Assembly (NCBI GenBank): GCA_020723305.1
Contig: DYJC01000011.1
Span: 62,001 to 126,000, forward strand
Source: Desulfosudis oleivorans
GTDB taxonomy: Bacteria > Desulfobacterota > Desulfobacteria > Desulfobacterales > SURF-7
Direction: 5' to 3'
DNA: 64,000 bases
Shown: positions 29,216-37,896 of the stretch, piece after piece
Layout of the letters: each line of letters begins with the position of its first letter
Position numbering within the stretch: position 1 is the stretch's first letter
Position numbers and translations under genes: made by a program
The notes under the pieces: generated by a model
Databases searched by the model: none
What the model saw: only the letters and a program-made list of their open reading frames with translations
Told to the model about the DNA's origin: nothing

Positions 29216-30754
29216 CTACAATACCTCTGATGCCAGGTAAGGCTTTTCTTTCAGGTATTCAAGCCGATTCAGTCCATTGATATACGCTTTTGCACTTGCG
29301 GTTATAATATCCGCATCCACCCCCCGGCCCAGTGCAACCAGACCGTTTTCACGAAGACGCACGGTTACCTCACCCTGCGCGTCTGTGCCGCCGGTCAGGG
29401 CACTGACAGAGAATCGCAGCATATCGGATTTGGTACGGGTCAGTTCTGCGATTGCATTGAAAGCCGCATCAATGGGTCCGTTACCGTAAGCAGTCCCATC
29501 GACTGGCCTGCCATTGATCTTCATGGTGACACCTGCGATGGGTCTGACCGTAGTCCCGCTGCTGACATGAAGATATTCCAGGCGGAAGATATCGGTTGTC
29601 CGCAATATGCCCTCATTCACCAGGGCCTCCAGATCTTCATCAAGGACATGTTTTTTCTTGTCCGCGAGCTCCTTGAATTTTGAAAAAATAAGATTGAGTT
29701 CCTCATCAGAGAGGTCATAGCCCATTTCTTTCAGGTGCGATTTTAACGCATGCCGGCCTGAATGTTTTCCAAGTATGAGTTTATTACTAGAAAGACCAAT
29801 GGTTTCCGGTTGCATAATTTCATAAGTCATTGGATTTTTTAACACACCATCCTGATGAATTCCGGCTTCATGTGCAAATGCATTCGCTCCTACGATTGCC
29901 TTGTTGGGTTGAACAATGATTCCGGTAATCATGCTGACCAGACGGCTGATGGGAAAAATTTTTGTACTATCAATATTCGTGGTCATTGGAAAAAAATTGG
30001 GTCTTGTCTTCAACGCCATAACCACTTCTTCCATAGAGGTGTTGCCGGCTCTTTCTCCAATTCCATTTATGGTTACCTCCGCCTGCCTGGCTCCGGCAGC
30101 AATTGCTGCCAAAGTATTGGCGGTGGCAAGTCCAAGATCATTGTGACAATGCACGCTCAGCAAAGCTTTATTGATATTGGATGTATTTTTTATTACATAT
30201 TTGACAAGTTCTGCAAATTCATGGGGAATCGCATATCCGACTGTGTCCGGAAGGTTGATCGTCGTCGCACCTGCGGATATGGCCGCTTCAAACACCTGAC
30301 ATAAAAAATCCCGGTCGCTTCTTGAACCGTCTTCAGCAGAAAACTCCACACTGTCGGTAAAGTTTTTTGAATAGGTTACGGCTTCTATCGTTGCCCTGAT
30401 GACCTCTTCACGACCCATATTCAATTTATACTTCATATGAATATCGGATGTGGCAATAAAGGTGTGTATTCTGGGTTTTGCCGCATGGGAGATTGCAGCC
30501 CATGCTCGATCAATATCATTTTTTGAAGTACGGCAAAGCCCTGCAATTTCACAGTTTGTAATTTTTTTTGCAATCTGTGAAACAGCTTCAAAATCACCTT
30601 CCGATGCAGCCGGGAAACCTGCTTCAATAACATCAACCCCCAGTTTTTCAAGTTGAGTGGCAATCCGGAGTTTTTCTGCTGTATTCATGCTTGCCCCAGG
30701 AGACTGCTCTCCATCCCGTAATGTTGTGTCGAAGATTTTTACAATATCACTCAT
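29216..30754 (-). CDS. leuA: 2-isopropylmalate synthase LeuA
   Basis: 512 residues. Condenses 2-oxoisovalerate with acetyl-CoA, the first committed leucine step. Catalytic TIM barrel marks: FDTTLRDGEQSPGASM at the N-terminus, SVHCHNDLGLATANT with the metal-binding HxH, and GIGERAGNTSMEEVVMAL. The C-terminal regulatory LeuA domain ends with SVSALTGGTDAQGEVTVRL, where leucine feedback acts. GGAG precedes the ATG. It is the last gene of the ilvDBNC-cimA-leuA operon, 20 bp after cimA, and is followed by the bidirectional terminator. Confidence 0.97.
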   Translation of the reverse strand: MSDIVKIFDTTLRDGEQSPGASMNTAEKLRIATQLEKLGVDVIEAGFPAASEGDFEAVSQIAKKITNCEIAGLCRTSKNDIDRAWAAISHAAKPRIHTFIATSDIHMKYKLNMGREEVIRATIEAVTYSKNFTDSVEFSAEDGSRSDRDFLCQVFEAAISAGATTINLPDTVGYAIPHEFAELVKYVIKNTSNINKALLSVHCHNDLGLATANTLAAIAAGARQAEVTINGIGERAGNTSMEEVVMALKTRPNFFPMTTNIDSTKIFPISRLVSMITGIIVQPNKAIVGANAFAHEAGIHQDGVLKNPMTYEIMQPETIGLSSNKLILGKHSGRHALKSHLKEMGYDLSDEELNLIFSKFKELADKKKHVLDEDLEALVNEGILRTTDIFRLEYLHVSSGTTVRPIAGVTMKINGRPVDGTAYGNGPIDAAFNAIAELTRTKSDMLRFSVSALTGGTDAQGEVTVRLRENGLVALGRGVDADIITASAKAYINGLNRLEYLKEKPYLASEVL

Positions 30755-30774: not shown

Positions 30775-32370
30775 TTATCGATTTACGTTGTGTGAAAGTT
30801 TATAATGAAAACTATCCGCAAGGGCCTGCCAACTGGCCTCAATGATATCCTCTGAAACACCCATAGTGCTCCATAAGCTTTCTTCATCCCTTGACTCAAT
30901 TAATACCCTTACTTTGGCAGAGGTGCCATCTCTTCCATCCATGACTCGAACTTTAAAATCAACCAGGTGCATGAGGTTAAGATCTGTAAAGAATTTACCC
31001 AATGCTTTTCGCATTGCATTATCCAATGCACTTACAGGCCCGTTTCCCTCTGCAGCGGTGATCTCCTCCTGACCCTGTACGGATATTTTAATCATGGCAT
31101 GGGATGAGCAAGGACGGTCTTTATTTTTTTCAACAGTTACCCTGAAGGATATCAGCTCAAATTGTGGAGCAAACTGGTCCGTGAATTTTTGCATTAAAAT
31201 TTGAAGTGATCCGTCCGCAGCTTCAAATTGATATCCTTCCATCTCCATATTTTTTATTTCATTTACAATTTTTCGATAATCAATTTTTTCGTCCGAGAGA
31301 TCGATTCCCAGTTCCTTGGCTTTGTATTCAATATTACTTTTTCCGGATAGTTCGGATACAAGAACACGTCGTTTGTTGCCGACAATTTCAGGATCCATAT
31401 GTTCATAAGCCCTCGGAACCTTCATGATTGCACTTACATGAATTCCTCCTTTATGAGCAAAAGAGCTCTTTCCGACAAAGGGTCTGGTGCTGAGGGGAAT
31501 CATGTTGGCGATCTCACTGACATATCTGGATAATTTTCGTAATTTTTTCAGATTCTCTTCTGAGATACATGGATAGCCCATTTTGATGGCAAGAATCGGA
31601 ATGATTGTAATCAGGTCTGCATTCCCACAACGCTCACCATATCCATTGATGGTTCCATGAACCATGGTTACTCCTTCTTGTACAGCGGCAATTGAATTGG
31701 CTACTGCCAGGCCGCAGTCATTATGTGCATGAATACCGATTTTTAAAGAAGTGGTGGATGGGGATGATTCGATCTTTAAAAATTTCCGGACGTCCTTTAT
31801 GATCGCTGTTATTTCAAAGGGTAGAGTACCGCCATTTGTATCACAGAGTGTAATGCAATCAGCGCCATTTTCAAATGCCGTCTTCAGGGTTTCTAATGCA
31901 TAATTTCTGTTTTCCTTATATCCATCAAAAAAATGCTCGGCATCATATATTACCTCGCGTCTGCTTTCTTTTAGGAAGAGAATGCTTTCTCTAATCATTG
32001 CAAGATTTTCTTCCAGAGAAGTCTCCATAATCTGTTCGATATGAAGGTCCCATGTTTTTCCAAATATGGTAACAGTCGATGCATTACTTTCCAATAAAGA
32101 AAGAAGGTTTTTGTCCTTGGAAGGCGAAATCCCTGGTTTCCGGGTGGAGCCAAATGCGGTTATACGGGATGTCTGAAACGAATCCTTTTCCGCAAGTTTA
32201 AAAAATTGCATGTCTCTTGGGTTGGAGCCGGGCCAACCACCCTCAATATAATGAATGCCCAAATCATCAAGCTTGTGTGCAATTCTGATTTTTTCTTCAA
32301 CCGTAAAGCTGATGTTTTCTCCCTGGGTTCCGTCCCGGAGAGTTGTATCGTATATCTGGATTGGGTCCAT
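30775..32370 (-). CDS. cimA: (R)-citramalate synthase CimA
   Basis: 531 residues. Condenses pyruvate with acetyl-CoA to citramalate, giving 2-oxobutyrate for isoleucine without threonine deaminase. It is related to LeuA but has the citramalate-type opening YDTTLRDGTQGENISFT and the IEGGWPGSNPRD stretch in place of EAGFPAAS; GIHAHNDCGLAVANS carries the HxH motif. A C-terminal LeuA dimer domain is present for isoleucine feedback. No ilvA is seen in the window, consistent with the citramalate route. It shares the operon with ilvDBNC and leuA. Confidence 0.95.
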   Translation of the reverse strand: MDPIQIYDTTLRDGTQGENISFTVEEKIRIAHKLDDLGIHYIEGGWPGSNPRDMQFFKLAEKDSFQTSRITAFGSTRKPGISPSKDKNLLSLLESNASTVTIFGKTWDLHIEQIMETSLEENLAMIRESILFLKESRREVIYDAEHFFDGYKENRNYALETLKTAFENGADCITLCDTNGGTLPFEITAIIKDVRKFLKIESSPSTTSLKIGIHAHNDCGLAVANSIAAVQEGVTMVHGTINGYGERCGNADLITIIPILAIKMGYPCISEENLKKLRKLSRYVSEIANMIPLSTRPFVGKSSFAHKGGIHVSAIMKVPRAYEHMDPEIVGNKRRVLVSELSGKSNIEYKAKELGIDLSDEKIDYRKIVNEIKNMEMEGYQFEAADGSLQILMQKFTDQFAPQFELISFRVTVEKNKDRPCSSHAMIKISVQGQEEITAAEGNGPVSALDNAMRKALGKFFTDLNLMHLVDFKVRVMDGRDGTSAKVRVLIESRDEESLWSTMGVSEDIIEASWQALADSFHYKLSHNVNR

Positions 32371-32521: not shown

Positions 32522-33574
32522 TTATTTTTTCCTGTTTTCAGGCCGTAATGCCCTGACCGCAGCACCGGCTTTCCACATTTCAGAATTTTTTATCGCTTCC
32601 AATTCTTTGCCAAGCTTTTGTGCATAATCCGGTGCACTGCTCACCGAAAGAACTCTTTCCGTTTCCTTTCCGGATTTAACACGTGCATAAAGTTCGTCAA
32701 ATACCGGTGCAACCGCATCACGGAATTTGGGTGACCAGTCCAGTGCGCCTCTTTGTGCAGTCTGGCTGCAGTTTGAAAACATCCAATCCATACCGTTTTC
32801 CGCTACAAGGCGGATCAGGCTCTGAGTGAGTTCTTCAACGGTTTCGTTAAATGCTTCACTGGGGGAGTGTCCATTCTTTCTCAGAACATTATATTGTGCT
32901 TCCATTGTTCCGGCAAGGCATCCCATGAGAACACCTCTTTCTCCGGTAAGGTCGCTGTATACTTCAGACTCAAATGTGGTGGGGAATAGATATCCTGATC
33001 CAATTGCTATCCCAAGAGCAAGCGTTCTTTCCGTGGCTCGTCCGGTAAAATCCTGATGTACAGCATAACTCGAATTGATTCCACTGCCATCCAGGAAATT
33101 CCTTCTGACATTTGTACCGGAGCCTTTAGGAGCGACCAGAATTACATCAATGTTTTCCGGTGGAATAACTTGCGTCTGATCTTTGTAGACAATTGAAAAA
33201 CCATGGGAGAAGTAAAGAGCATCCCCTTCATTCAGGCATTTTTTCACTTTGGGCCAGATTGCTTTTTGACCTGCATCCGATAACAGCATTTTGATGATGG
33301 TGCCTTTTTTTGCTGCTTCTTCGATCGGGAACAGGGTTTTTCCTGGAATAAAGCCGTCGGATATGGCTTTTTTCCAATATGCATCACCTTCAATCTGACC
33401 GATGATTACATCAAAACCATTGTCTTTCAGATTCAATGCCTGTGCAGGGCCTTGAACGCCATAACCCAAAACAGTAATAATTTCATTTTTTAAGATCTCT
33501 CTGGCTTTTTCAAGAGAGAACTCTTCTGATGTTACAATATCTTCCTTTACTCCTCCGAAATTGATTGTCGGCAT
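32522..33574 (-). CDS. ilvC: ketol-acid reductoisomerase IlvC
   Basis: 350 residues. Isomerises and reduces acetolactate and acetohydroxybutyrate, with NAD(P)H and Mg2+. N-terminal Rossmann loop VLGYGVQGPAQALNLKDNGFD; VAPKGSGTNVRRNF and SEVYSDLTGERGVLMGC lead into the knotted C-terminal domain with its acidic metal ligands. Length fits class I. GAGGAG precedes the ATG. In the operon it follows ilvN, but a copy of the dispersed palindromic element sits in the 167-bp gap between them. Confidence 0.95.
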   Translation of the reverse strand: MPTINFGGVKEDIVTSEEFSLEKAREILKNEIITVLGYGVQGPAQALNLKDNGFDVIIGQIEGDAYWKKAISDGFIPGKTLFPIEEAAKKGTIIKMLLSDAGQKAIWPKVKKCLNEGDALYFSHGFSIVYKDQTQVIPPENIDVILVAPKGSGTNVRRNFLDGSGINSSYAVHQDFTGRATERTLALGIAIGSGYLFPTTFESEVYSDLTGERGVLMGCLAGTMEAQYNVLRKNGHSPSEAFNETVEELTQSLIRLVAENGMDWMFSNCSQTAQRGALDWSPKFRDAVAPVFDELYARVKSGKETERVLSVSSAPDYAQKLGKELEAIKNSEMWKAGAAVRALRPENRKK

Positions 33575-33643: not shown

Positions 33644-33742
33644 CGTCATGCCGGACTTGATCCGGCATCCAGTATTTTCAATCCTATTCTGGACACCGGC
33701 TTTCGCCGGTGTGACGGTATTTAATCGTTTTGAAATTGGCTC
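33644..33742. repeat. variant copy of the GGCTC-ended dispersed element
   Basis: The left part is a palindrome ATGCCGGACTTGATCCGGCAT, of a kind dispersed in many genomes. The right part (CACCGGCTTTCGCCGGTGTGACG, then CGTTTTGAAATTGGCTC) matches the end of the elements at 39495 and 60867. It lacks their left terminal repeat. The last C of GGCTC is also the first base of the ilvN stop codon on the plus-strand view, so it abuts the ilvN end exactly. It could fold and lower expression of ilvC-cimA-leuA relative to ilvDBN. Confidence 0.7.
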
Positions 33743-34233
33743 TACTGCTTTGGTTCCCGTAACAAAGCAATTCTACCGGATCTAGTAATATTTTTAATTC
33801 CCATTGGTTTTAAAAGCGTGATGATCGCATCTATTTTGTCCTCAGTTCCTGTAACTTCAATTGTATAATGGTCAGATCCGACATCAACAACCTTGGCTCT
33901 GAAAATATCCACAATTCTGAGGATTTCAGCACGGTGATTTGCTTTGGCTGAAACCTTTATCAATATCAGTTCGCGTTGGATACTTCTCTCATCGGTGAGG
34001 TCATAAACCTTGATCACATTGATCAATTTAAACAGTTGTTTTTTAATCTGTTCAATGATCTGAGTATCCCCCATTGTGACCATGGTGATGCGGGATATCG
34101 CCGGATCGATGGTTTCTGCGACACAAAGGCTTTCAATGTTATAGCCCCTTCCGCTGAATAGTCCTGCAATTCTGGATAAAACTCCCGGCTGGTTATCCAC
34201 CAGGATGGAAAAAATATGCTTTTTTTCAGTCAT
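33742..34233 (-). CDS. ilvN: acetolactate synthase small subunit IlvN
   Basis: 163 residues. Regulatory subunit that binds valine and activates IlvB. N-terminal ACT domain HIFSILVDNQPGVLSRIAGLFSGRGYNIESL; C-terminal IlvH-type domain with TGTEDKIDAIITLLKPMGIKNITRSGRIAL in near-consensus form. It lies 24 bp after ilvB. AGGAT precedes the ATG. The stop codon coincides with the edge of a repeat element. Confidence 0.96.
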   Translation of the reverse strand: MTEKKHIFSILVDNQPGVLSRIAGLFSGRGYNIESLCVAETIDPAISRITMVTMGDTQIIEQIKKQLFKLINVIKVYDLTDERSIQRELILIKVSAKANHRAEILRIVDIFRAKVVDVGSDHYTIEVTGTEDKIDAIITLLKPMGIKNITRSGRIALLREPKQ

Positions 34234-34257: not shown

Positions 34258-35943
34258 TTACACAAGAATCATATTGGTGATGGCCGCTCCGGAAGGAACC
34301 ATCGGATAGACGTTTTCTTCCTGCTCAACACGGAAATCCATGATTACGGGTCGAGGAATCGACAGCGCTTCCCGAATCACCGGTTCCACTTCGCTCGATT
34401 GAGTCGCCCGTAAACCAACTGCTCCGTATGCTTCTGCTAGTTTAACAAAATCCGGTGCAAAATTCATATTGGTCCAGGAATAATTTTTTTTATAAAAAAG
34501 TTCCTGCCATTGCCTAACCATACCGAGAAAACCATTATTTAAAATTGCGATTTTTACCGGCAGGTTGAACTGAACCGCGGTTGCAAATTCCTGGCTGTTC
34601 ATCTGGATGCTTCCATCTCCTGCAATATCAATGACTGTTTTGGTCGGGCAGGCAACCTGTGCTCCAATTGCTGCGGGCAGTCCAAATCCCATGCATCCCA
34701 ATCCTCCGGATGAGATAAAATGATTGGGTTTATCAAAATGGTAATATTGTGCCGCCCACATCTGATTTTGTCCGACTTCCGTGGTGATAATGGCTTCTCC
34801 TTTTGTCAGTTCATATATTTTTTCCACAACAAATTGTGGTTTAATCAACCCATTCTGAATATATTTCAGCGGGGTTGTTTCTTTCCATTTTCTGATTTTT
34901 TCCAGCCATGGTTTTCGTATCTCATCCAGATCTCCCAGTTTGACCTTATGTATCAGATTGTTTAAATGCGTAAGAGTTATTTTGCAGTCCCCGACAACCG
35001 GAACGGCAACCGGGATGTTTTTATGGATGGATGTGGGATCAATATCAATATGAACAATCTCTGCATGCTTGGCAAATTCCTGCACTTTGCCGGTAACACG
35101 GTCATCAAACCGAACCCCGGCCGCTATCATCAGGTCAGCCTCTCCAATGGACATGTTTGCACGAAAAGTTCCGTGCATCCCAGGCATTCCGAGCCATAAG
35201 GGATCGGTTCCCGGAAATGCTCCCAAACCCATCAAAGATGCAGTAACCGGAATTTTGGTTCGATGCGAAAATTCAATCAATGCATCAGAAGCCCTGGAAA
35301 GGATAATGCCACCGCCTGCGAAGATAATCGGTTTTCTTGAATTTTTTATCAGTTCGATCACTTTTTGAAGCTGTCTCAGGTTTGGCTCATATGTCGGATT
35401 ATAGGATCTTAAGCTTATCGTATCCGGCGCATCATAAATCGCTTTTGAATTGGCAACATCTTTTGGGATATCGATCAGTACAGGGCCGGGACGACCGGAT
35501 CTGGCGATATAAAAAGCTTCTTTTACGATTCTTGCCAGATCCTTTATATTTTTCACCAGATAATTGTGTTTGGTGCATGGCCTAGTGATACCGACAATAT
35601 CCACTTCCTGAAACGCATCGTTTCCGATAAGCGCGGAAGGGACCTGGCCGGTTACCACCACCAGCGGTATGGAATCCATGTTGGCGGATGCGATGCCTGT
35701 AACCGTATTGGTTGCTCCAGGTCCGGATGTTACCAGACAGACACCGACCTTTCCGCTGGCCCTTGCATATCCATCAGCAGCATGAACGGCTCCCTGTTCA
35801 TGGCGAACCAGGATGTGTTTGAAGTCTGTGCGTGACAATTCATCATAAAAATCGAGAACAGCACCACCCGGGTAACCGAATATTGTATCCACTCCTTCTT
35901 CTTTGAATGCCCTCATCAGGATTTGTGCGCCTGTCAGTTCCAT
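34258..35943 (-). CDS. ilvB: acetolactate synthase large subunit IlvB
   Basis: 561 residues, ThDP- and FAD-dependent. Makes 2-acetolactate and 2-aceto-2-hydroxybutyrate. Marks: FGYPGGAVLDFYDEL with the catalytic Glu in the next helix (RHEQGAVHAADGYAR), the FAD region GVRFDDRVTGK, and the ThDP/Mg motif GDGSIQMNSQE. Anabolic type because it pairs with IlvN. AAGGAAA precedes the ATG. It lies 44 bp after ilvD. Confidence 0.97.
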   Translation of the reverse strand: MELTGAQILMRAFKEEGVDTIFGYPGGAVLDFYDELSRTDFKHILVRHEQGAVHAADGYARASGKVGVCLVTSGPGATNTVTGIASANMDSIPLVVVTGQVPSALIGNDAFQEVDIVGITRPCTKHNYLVKNIKDLARIVKEAFYIARSGRPGPVLIDIPKDVANSKAIYDAPDTISLRSYNPTYEPNLRQLQKVIELIKNSRKPIIFAGGGIILSRASDALIEFSHRTKIPVTASLMGLGAFPGTDPLWLGMPGMHGTFRANMSIGEADLMIAAGVRFDDRVTGKVQEFAKHAEIVHIDIDPTSIHKNIPVAVPVVGDCKITLTHLNNLIHKVKLGDLDEIRKPWLEKIRKWKETTPLKYIQNGLIKPQFVVEKIYELTKGEAIITTEVGQNQMWAAQYYHFDKPNHFISSGGLGCMGFGLPAAIGAQVACPTKTVIDIAGDGSIQMNSQEFATAVQFNLPVKIAILNNGFLGMVRQWQELFYKKNYSWTNMNFAPDFVKLAEAYGAVGLRATQSSEVEPVIREALSIPRPVIMDFRVEQEENVYPMVPSGAAITNMILV

Positions 35944-35987: not shown

Positions 35988-37655
35988 TTATTTGAATACT
36001 GCACCTTCGCTGGCTGAAGAAACCATTTTCGCATATCTTGCCATGTAACCGGTCGTCACTTTGGGTTGAGGAGGCTTCCAGTTTGAAAACCGCTCCTCGA
36101 TCTCCTTATCGGTCAGTTGCAACATGAGTTTTTTATTTGGGATGTCTACTGAGATCAAATCTCCTTCCCTTACAATGGCAATCGGGCCCTTCTGCATACC
36201 TTCCGGTGAGATATGACCGATTGCTGCACCCCGTGTTCCGCCGGAAAAACGGCCATCGGTTATCAACGCAACATGGGCATCCAGTTTCATTCCCGCAATC
36301 GCTGAGGTCGGTGTTAACATCTCCCTCATTCCCGGACCGCCCATAGGGCCTTCGTACCGTATGACGATTACATCGCCTTTTTTAATTTTACCGCCCATAA
36401 TAGCGCTGGTGGCCTCTTCCTCTGAATCAAATACCCTTGCCGGCCCTTCATGTTTCATCATCTCTTCACAAACTGCGGATTGTTTGACGACACATCCATC
36501 CGGTGCAAGATTCCCAAAAAGTACAGCCAGTCCTCCCTGTTTGTGGTATGGGTTATTCAGTGTCCGGATCACTTCCGGCTCCAGGATTCTTGTGTGTTGA
36601 ATATTTTCCTCCACGCAGTTACCTGTCACGGTGATACAGTCCCTATGGATTAGTCCATTATCGGATAAAACCCTAAGAACAGCACTGATTCCGCCCGCTC
36701 TGTTCAGATCTTCTATATGGTGTCTGCCACCTGGGCTCAGTGAACAGAGATGAGGCGTTTTTCCGCTGATTTCGTTGATCATGTTCAGGTTGATTGGAAT
36801 GCCCGCTTCCCGGGCGATGGCCGGAAGATGAAGAACCGTATTGGTCGAACAACCCAATGCCATGTCAACAGTCAGTGCATTTTGAAAAGCTTTTTCAGTC
36901 ATTATTTTTCTGGGAGTGATCTGTTTATCAAGAAGTTCCATAATCTTCATCCCGGCCATTTTGGCCAGACGCAGGCGGGCTGCCATAACGGCAGGTATCG
37001 TACCATTACCCGGAAGGCCCATTCCAATGGCCTCGGTCAGACAGTTCATGGAATTTGCGGTGAACATTCCGGCACATGAACCGCAGGTCGGACAGGCCTC
37101 GTCTTCAATCATATTCAGCTCATCCGGGGTCATGTTGCCGGAAAGCACAGACCCAACCGATTCAAAAACCGTAACCAGATCCAGTTTTTTAGAAGGGTTT
37201 TCCGGATGTCTTCCGGCAAGCATCGGGCCACCGCTCACAATAATGGTCGGGATGTTCAGCCGCGCTGCTGCCATTAACATGCCTGGTGTTATTTTGTCAC
37301 AGTTTGTTACCATGACCATGGCATCGAAGGAATGGGCGGTTGCCATGATTTCGATGGAATCAGCAATCAGCTCCCGGCTTCCCAGGGAATATTTCATTCC
37401 CGTGTGATTCATTGCAATACCATCGCAAACCCCAATTGTTCCAAACTCCATAGGAGTGCCACCGGCCATGAGAATACCGGTTTTTACGGCTTCGACGATA
37501 TTGTTCAGGTGCATATGGCCGGGGATGATCGTATTGGCTGAATTGGCGATACCAATCATGGGTCTATCGATTTCGGTGTTGGTATATCCCATGGATTTGA
37601 ATAAAGACCGGTGAGGGGCTCTTTCAATTCCTTTTTTGACGGAATCGCTTTTCAT
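35988..37655 (-). CDS. ilvD: dihydroxy-acid dehydratase IlvD
   Basis: 555 residues. Dehydrates 2,3-dihydroxy-isovalerate and -methylvalerate with an Fe-S cluster. Cluster-linked cysteines appear in [11 protein letters not shown] and [32 protein letters not shown] and the C-terminal [17 protein letters not shown] are diagnostic. First structural gene of the operon. AAAGGAG lies 8 bases before the ATG, directly downstream of the attenuator terminator's T-run. Confidence 0.97.
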
Positions 37656-37675: not shown

Positions 37676-37717
37676 AAAAAAACCGTTATCAGTTGATTCG
37701 GACTGATAACGGTTTTT
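37676..37717 (-). terminator. attenuator terminator of the ilv operon
   Basis: On the minus strand ACCGTTATCAGT (37713-37702) pairs perfectly with ACTGATAACGGT (37693-37682) over an 8-base loop; flanking A-U pairs can lengthen the stem. A T-run follows (37680-37676), 20 bp before the ilvD start. It is a strong intrinsic terminator placed between a leader peptide and the first gene. Confidence 0.9.
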
Positions 37718-37750
37718 AATGTTGATTTATTTGACTTATGCCATTATCAG
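37702..37750 (-). promoter_or_regulatory. antiterminator pairing in the ilv leader
   Basis: On the minus strand CTGATAATGG (37750-37741), which spans the leader stop codon, can pair with CCGTTATCAG (37712-37703) in the first arm of the terminator: nine Watson-Crick pairs and one G-U. The two structures exclude each other. A ribosome at the leader stop covers CTGATAATGG and allows termination; one stalled at Ile, Leu or Val codons leaves it free and prevents the terminator. This mechanism is inferred from the pairing. Confidence 0.75.
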
Positions 37751-37836
37751 CCCTTTTCCTCGCAGTAAGGTACGACCCTCACGACGAGGATGATAATAAG
37801 GATGAGGACTAAATTGATAATGACTGAATTTTTCAT
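37747..37836 (-). CDS. ilv operon leader peptide
   Basis: A 29-residue peptide from ATG 37836 to TGA 37747. Of residues 5-22, 16 of 18 are Ile, Leu or Val (totals: 6 Ile, 4 Leu, 6 Val), only Asn8 and Arg20 breaking the run; it ends VPYCEEKG. AAGGGA lies just upstream of the ATG. Its composition and place match the ilvL leader of enterobacterial ilv operons, although the sequences are not clearly alike. It serves as a translation sensor for charged branched-chain tRNAs, not as a functional protein. Confidence 0.88.
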   Translation of the reverse strand: MKNSVIINLVLILIIILVVRVVPYCEEKG

Positions 37837-37868
37837 AAATTCCCTTAATCTTTAAAAGAGATATAGCC

Positions 37869-37896
37869 TCTATCATGAATTGCTAAAAAAAGTCAA
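37869..37896 (-). promoter_or_regulatory. possible promoter of the ilv operon
   Basis: On the minus strand -35 TTGACT (37896-37891), 16-bp spacer and a weak -10 GATAGA (37874-37869), about 30 bases before the leader peptide start. The -35 is good, the -10 poor, but the position fits an attenuator leader. Confidence 0.35.

Follow-up and report, generated by a model that had tools for sequence, protein, structure and literature searches.

On the minus strand of the window, the 64-kb stretch of DNA that was analysed, genes of branched-chain amino acid (BCAA) synthesis were arranged in the order ilvD-ilvB-ilvN-ilvC-cimA-leuA. They encoded dihydroxy-acid dehydratase (ilvD; 35988..37655; TIGR00110), the large (ilvB; 34258..35943; TIGR00118) and small (ilvN/ilvH; 33742..34233; TIGR00119) subunits of acetolactate synthase, ketol-acid reductoisomerase (ilvC; 32522..33574; TIGR00465), citramalate synthase (cimA; 30775..32370; TIGR00977), and 2-isopropylmalate synthase (leuA; 29216..30754; TIGR00973), and all scored above the cut-offs of these NCBIfam models. 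The models confirmed the reading of an earlier note on this DNA that cimA and leuA belong to the operon as well. The same note had described a Desulfobacterota-like background, and the nearest relatives were indeed Desulfobacterales; the closest IlvD, with 96% identity, was that of Desulfobacterium sp. SW.3.97. The first gene 3′ of the predicted attenuator was ilvD.

A predicted leader peptide ORF (37836..37747, minus strand) was composed of 29 codons and a TGA stop, with TAA as the next in-frame codon, and its product was MKNSVIINLVLILIIILVVRVVPYCEEKG. The regulatory codons, 5–22 (37771..37824, minus strand), specified Ile, Leu, or Val at 16 of 18 positions, exactly as the earlier note had read from the sequence. 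A weak Shine-Dalgarno-like sequence, AAGGGA, was located 5′ of the leader ATG (37841..37846, minus strand). Within the 64-kb window, the leader ORF was the only ORF of 15–60 codons with at least 12 Ile, Leu, or Val codons per 18. When 60 sequences of 64 kb were simulated with the same dinucleotide content, the window serving as the background of this chance estimate, the maximum count was 13 and none reached 14 or more. The predicted leader ORF thus provided the run of end-product codons ahead of BCAA genes that characterizes the attenuator class.

The predicted intrinsic terminator (37676..37717, minus strand), recognized by sequence, fold, and covariation, was located between the leader and the first gene. 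Its hairpin (37717..37678, minus strand) contained 16 pairs formed by AAAAACCGTTATCAGT and ACTGATAACGGTTTTT around an 8-nt loop, and the T-run ended about 20 nt 5′ of the ilvD ATG (37655). The hairpin, T-run, and spacing of the earlier note were therefore retained, whereas its stem of 12 bp was too short. Four segments of the leader RNA, all read from the minus strand, shared mutually exclusive partners. Segment 1, the putative protector GTCATTATCA, occupied codons 5–8 (37815..37824) and, in the minimum-energy fold of the window RNA, was base-paired to segment 2. Segment 2, GGGCTGATAATGG (37741..37753), overlapped the leader stop codon and was identified by complementarity and covariation. Segment 3, CCGTTATCAGTCC (37700..37712), could pair either with segment 2, as the antiterminator, or with segment 4, the terminator 3′ arm CTGATAACGG (37683..37692; sequence and covariation), so that the antiterminator shared the 5′ arm of the terminator. 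The pairing of the stop-codon segment with the first terminator arm that the earlier note had proposed, CTGATAATGG:CCGTTATCAG, was present with nine Watson–Crick pairs and one G–U, and it extended to a longer helix of 13 pairs, GGGCTGATAATGG:CCGTTATCAGTCC. The minimum-energy fold also contained a hairpin within the leader ORF (TCCTCG..CGAGGA; 37757..37790, minus strand), a possible pause hairpin. The fold of the leader RNA had a z value of −6.5 against shuffles. The earlier statement that all parts of the switch are present was correct, and the protector in codons 5–8, the 13-pair antiterminator, and the promoter described below can be added to its list.

Conservation was assessed from a search of bacterial genomes with IlvD, which gave 80 Desulfobacterales loci, of which 79 upstream regions were examined. 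An Ile/Leu/Val-rich leader preceded ilvD in 58 of the 79, and 56 of those 58 also had the terminator; including the window locus, the numbers were 59 with a leader and 57 with both. These relatives kept both the leader codons and the pairing that competes with the terminator, with compensatory changes, which answered the conservation check proposed in the earlier note. Across relatives, the peptide core of 1062 residues contained 300 Ile, 263 Leu, and 213 Val; Phe (12), Ala (24), and Met (5) were rare, and Trp was absent. CTC was favoured among the Leu codons of the leader, accounting for two of four in the window leader versus 7% of Leu codons in the window genes. In the 59 leaders pooled, CTC and CTA made up 28% and 17% of Leu codons, respectively, and Val codons favoured GTC. 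Rare leader codons may sharpen ribosome stalling; alternatively, pairing constraints may be the cause of this usage. A recognized leader was absent from 21 of the 79 related Desulfobacterales ilvD loci. Loci without a leader included L074–L079, L083–L085, L087–L090, and L093–L094, and several leaderless ilvD loci carried a short conserved upstream ORF (MHLVDYKVRVIEGRDGTSARVKVFIES...), possibly a different neighbouring gene.

A promoter was predicted upstream of the leader ORF from a −35 element, TTGACT (37891..37896, minus strand), and an extended −10 element, TGA-TAGAGG (37867..37875, minus strand), located 18 nt from it. Both were conserved in relatives, as CTTGAC(A/T) and TGnTA, respectively. 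Of 57 loci, 53 had CTTGAC(A/T) at 54–72 nt 5′ of the leader ATG, versus 1.2 expected from shuffles, and in 40 of these 53 it was followed by TGnTA at a spacing of 17–18 nt, giving the consensus CTTGACA, 17–18 nt, TGnTAnnn. The predicted transcription start was near 37860, about 24 nt 5′ of the leader ATG. Since the promoter was conserved upstream of the leader, transcription should start 5′ of the leader and not downstream of 37750, the start site that the earlier note had considered adverse to attenuation. The computed position of the promoter, 5′ of the leader ORF, is that of the attenuator class.

The position of segment 2 was conserved independently of the reading frame. The stop codon was inside segment 2 in 48 loci and beyond it in 8, where a different frame ran through segment 2 (Leu-Ile-Met-Ala in one example). 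Segment 2 kept its place whatever the frame, which indicates that pairing in the RNA, and not the peptide sequence, fixes its position. Complementarity between segments 2 and 3 was significant at p ≤ 0.01 in 46 of 57 loci. In an alignment of 56 leader sequences, 91.2% of cells of the 2:3 helix were paired, changes on both sides occurred at seven pairs, and the covariation was 0.183 versus 0.112 ± 0.007 in shuffles. Pairing dropped to 58% or less when the partner was slid. The terminator helix, 3:4, was paired in 95.0% of cells with a covariation of 0.172 versus 0.088 in shuffles, and one of its pairs had undergone at least seven independent double changes on the IlvD tree. Kinship of the loci inflates these shuffle-based statistics, and the slid controls and tree counts served as a guard against it.

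The decisive evidence for the antiterminator came from the pair 126:191, which was paired in 55 of 56 sequences (GC 41, GU 6, UA 6, AU 1, and UG 1). Base 191 is located in the terminator loop; its match with base 126 can therefore serve only the antiterminator and is not explained by the 3:4 helix. A loop-side test of the 2:3 helix in the 13 module copies ahead of cimA or leuA gave 0.865 paired versus 0.712 in shuffles, and 0 of 2000 shuffles reached the former value. For the ilvB copies alone, loop-side covariation was not above shuffles, with too little variation among these copies to tell. The 1:2 helix was weaker than 2:3, with 73.5% of cells paired and a score of 0.222 versus 0.185 in shuffles. 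In 38 of the 57 loci, segments 1 and 2 were complementary at p ≤ 0.05, and the number of double-changed 1:2 pairs in the aligned leaders was not above shuffles. A Desulfobacula-like branch (L102, L107–L110, and L165) had a different leader-internal hairpin, GGAGGTGA..TCACCTCC. In this branch segment 2 was changed (CTCTTAGTGGC) while the terminator arm kept CCGTTATCAG, and the 2:3 pairing was weaker as a result.

The effect of the ribosome was modelled by masked folding, in which the ribosome was placed codon by codon and only the RNA downstream of it, through segment 3, was folded. In the window, the probability of the 2:3 helix was 1.00 as long as the A site held codon 23 or an earlier one, and 0.00 once it held codon 27 or a later one. 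Across 56 loci (the window and 55 relatives), its mean was 0.82 with the ribosome stalled in the middle of the run versus 0 at the stop. In these computations the position of the stalled ribosome decided which helix formed, and the folding proposed in the earlier note, with and without a ribosome at the stop codon, gave the pattern expected of an attenuator, the antiterminator being free during a stall in the run and blocked at the stop. All sixteen Ile, Leu, and Val codons of the run were located in the permissive part, and the positions from which a ribosome masks segment 2 fell in the tail of the peptide, which has none of these residues. In 47 of 56 loci, 15 nt or more (median 17) separated the last regulatory codon from segment 2, a gap that places segment 2 just outside the leading edge of the ribosome as assumed in the masking. 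At equilibrium, the full-length RNA always favoured the terminator; antitermination must therefore be kinetic, as it is in attenuators generally. Likewise, the 2:3 helix was thermodynamically superior to 1:2 once segment 3 had been made, so that, with the leader untranslated, termination depends on the kinetics of folding.

In established attenuation logic, a starved ribosome leads to the antiterminator and transcription, and a fed ribosome at the stop codon leads to the terminator. The arrangement of the parts, their conservation, the covariation in the 2:3 and 3:4 helices, the place of the promoter, and the masked folding together indicate, with a probability of about 0.93, that transcription at this locus is controlled by a ribosome-mediated attenuator of the ilvL type. 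RNA polymerase would set out from the conserved promoter, some 24 nt 5′ of the leader ATG, with a ribosome following on the leader. With low charging of Ile, Leu, or Val tRNA, the ribosome would stall in codons 5–22, covering or passing segment 1 and leaving segment 2 free. The free segment 2 would pair with segment 3 once the latter was made, presumably before segment 4 was made, and with no terminator formed ilvDBNC-cimA-leuA would be transcribed. With Ile, Leu, and Val all plentiful, the ribosome would mask segment 2 at the stop, the 3:4 terminator would form, and transcription would end before ilvD. In an untranslated leader, the 1:2 pairing should also favour termination. The leader and its RNA switch thus very probably allow transcription of the BCAA genes only when Ile, Leu, or Val runs short; actual termination, stalling, the amino acid response, and operon-wide transcription are what we infer from this arrangement.

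The leader peptide is hydrophobic and long enough for a membrane span, and it might be read as a small membrane protein followed by a hairpin that serves as a plain constitutive terminator or as a processing site. This reading is very unlikely given the core composition, which was Ile, Leu, and Val across relatives with almost no Phe, Met, or Trp and little Ala. Segment 2 stayed in place both in the 48 loci where it supplies the stop and in the 8 where it is read in a different frame and the stop comes later, so that conservation acts on the RNA and not on the protein; in addition, the 2:3 covariation took in bases of the terminator loop. The conserved structure and the unusually invariant terminator arms could also suit a metabolite riboswitch or a protein-binding RNA switch that uses the terminator, the leader ORF being incidental. 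No Rfam family was found at threshold, however, and the only additional conserved structure was the hairpin inside the coding run, 71% of whose cells were paired with covariation not above shuffles. As a separate regulatory element this hairpin was rejected on the same ground, and it was left as a possible pause hairpin. With Ile/Leu/Val codons that were conserved and ended about 17 nt before segment 2, such a switch has next to no chance of being the correct description. A T-box or a known leader was rejected for lack of an Rfam match.

The terminator arms, CCGTTATCAG...CTGATAACGG, form a perfect inverted repeat that is nearly invariant across an order, and they could be read as an operator in the DNA at which a repressor of the BCAA genes binds. 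The exact palindrome was present in 24 of 58 genomes, at one site each, and nearly all of these sites were terminators of the leader module. In addition, the arms changed along with segment 2 in some loci, L158 having CCATTATCAG with a segment 4 of CTGATAATGG and L096 having CCGTTGCCAG/CTGGCAACGG, and the palindrome was located downstream of both promoter and leader; an operator is hardly credible on these grounds. A broader proposal starts from the attenuator and adds to it: one cassette of shared sequence would have moved, by copying or transfer, between ilvD, ilvB, cimA, and leuA throughout Desulfobacterota and would form a cis RNA regulon, and the near-invariant CCGTTATCAG stem would be kept by an extra function, such as an effect in trans of the terminated leader RNA on other mRNAs. 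Activity in trans is described for the Sinorhizobium trp leader peptide (PMC7298713). This combined proposal has a small chance of being right.

The distribution of the attenuator was followed with a covariance model, R1, built on segment 2 through the T-run. The model matched 172 of 194 genomes sampled from the order; the genome sets contained many draft metagenome assemblies, and the absence in 22 genomes may partly reflect missing sequence. Cultured carriers of the module included Desulfonema magnum and Desulfosarcina cetonica. In the rest of the phylum, about 238 genomes were sampled and 13 were matched, with copies mostly 5′ of cimA. The genes downstream of 146 copies (three fetched twice) were ilvD (81), ilvB (42), cimA (11), and leuA (2), with one decayed and nine unclassified. 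All copies with an identifiable downstream gene preceded BCAA genes, save the decayed one. That copy, L152 (G017:C1165, 430-720), had the leader and terminator in full; a piece similar to the beginning of ilvD came next, and then an M55-type D-aminopeptidase-like protein, and by its sequence the copy looks like a decayed duplicate of an ilvD leader region. Several genomes had two copies of the module, for example ahead of ilvD and ilvB, ilvB and cimA, or ilvD and cimA, and the genome of the window had a single strong copy (83.9 bits). A shift of the leaders toward Leu before leuA or cimA was only slight, the Leu share being 0.39 in 11 cimA leaders versus 0.34 before ilvD, with leuA represented by two cases.

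The earlier note had singled out the joint sensing of Ile, Leu, and Val; it fits the composition of the leader but is not unusual, as the ilvL leader of Escherichia coli already senses the three together. The window locus resembled E. coli ilvL (ilvXGMEDA; NC_000913.3, 3950322..3950420) in its Ile/Leu/Val-rich leader, a terminator before the first gene, a downstream BCAA operon with ilvD, and the expectation that shortage of a single amino acid relieves termination. The terminator and alternative-pairing sequences were unrelated, however (CCCCCGCACC..GGTCCGGGGG in E. coli versus CCGTTATCAG..CTGATAACGG in the window), and the window operon also has cimA and leuA. Homology with E. coli ilvL was rejected, since R1 gave 14.6 bits there versus 83.9 in the window and the terminator arms were unrelated. 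Regulatory codons combined with mutually exclusive hairpins are shared with the Leu leader (RF00512) and the Thr, His, and Trp leaders. An Rfam scan of the window found no family at its gathering score, these leaders included, and gave only weak unrelated matches below threshold. The leaders of Corynebacterium ilvBNC and Listeria ilvD, in which a BCAA leader peptide controls ilv genes by ribosome-mediated attenuation, are similar (PMC11857589, PMC10272879, PMC5864092), and they belong to other phyla than the window.

The locus is very probably a conserved attenuator of known mechanism whose sequence family appears new and has no Rfam match. A 2013 survey considered such attenuators probably gamma-proteobacterial in origin, with few transfers, and remarked that Rfam had no Ile/Val attenuators (PMC3766115). 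In the present data, an attenuator with a shared sequence core was present in 172 of 194 genomes sampled from a Desulfobacterota order. The result supplies a ready covariance family and predicts control of BCAA synthesis, citramalate route included, in relatives of sulfate reducers. Its many natural variants offer a test of the evolution of four mutually pairing RNA segments. No description of such an attenuator for Desulfobacterales was found in the literature searched; Vitreschak et al. 2004 (cited in PMC1183508), reportedly a study of proteobacterial attenuators, may mention it.

A tryptophan leader, MRRNRNITVTCFHWWWRTCFRKLACGTIPV, was found 5′ of trpE in the genome of the window (L162; C45, about 172090-172330, minus strand), with TTGACA upstream and a hairpin and T-run downstream. 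Leaders with WWW or WW preceded trpE in most of the near relatives checked (L274–L291), and, judged from these sequences, trp attenuation is probably general in the order.
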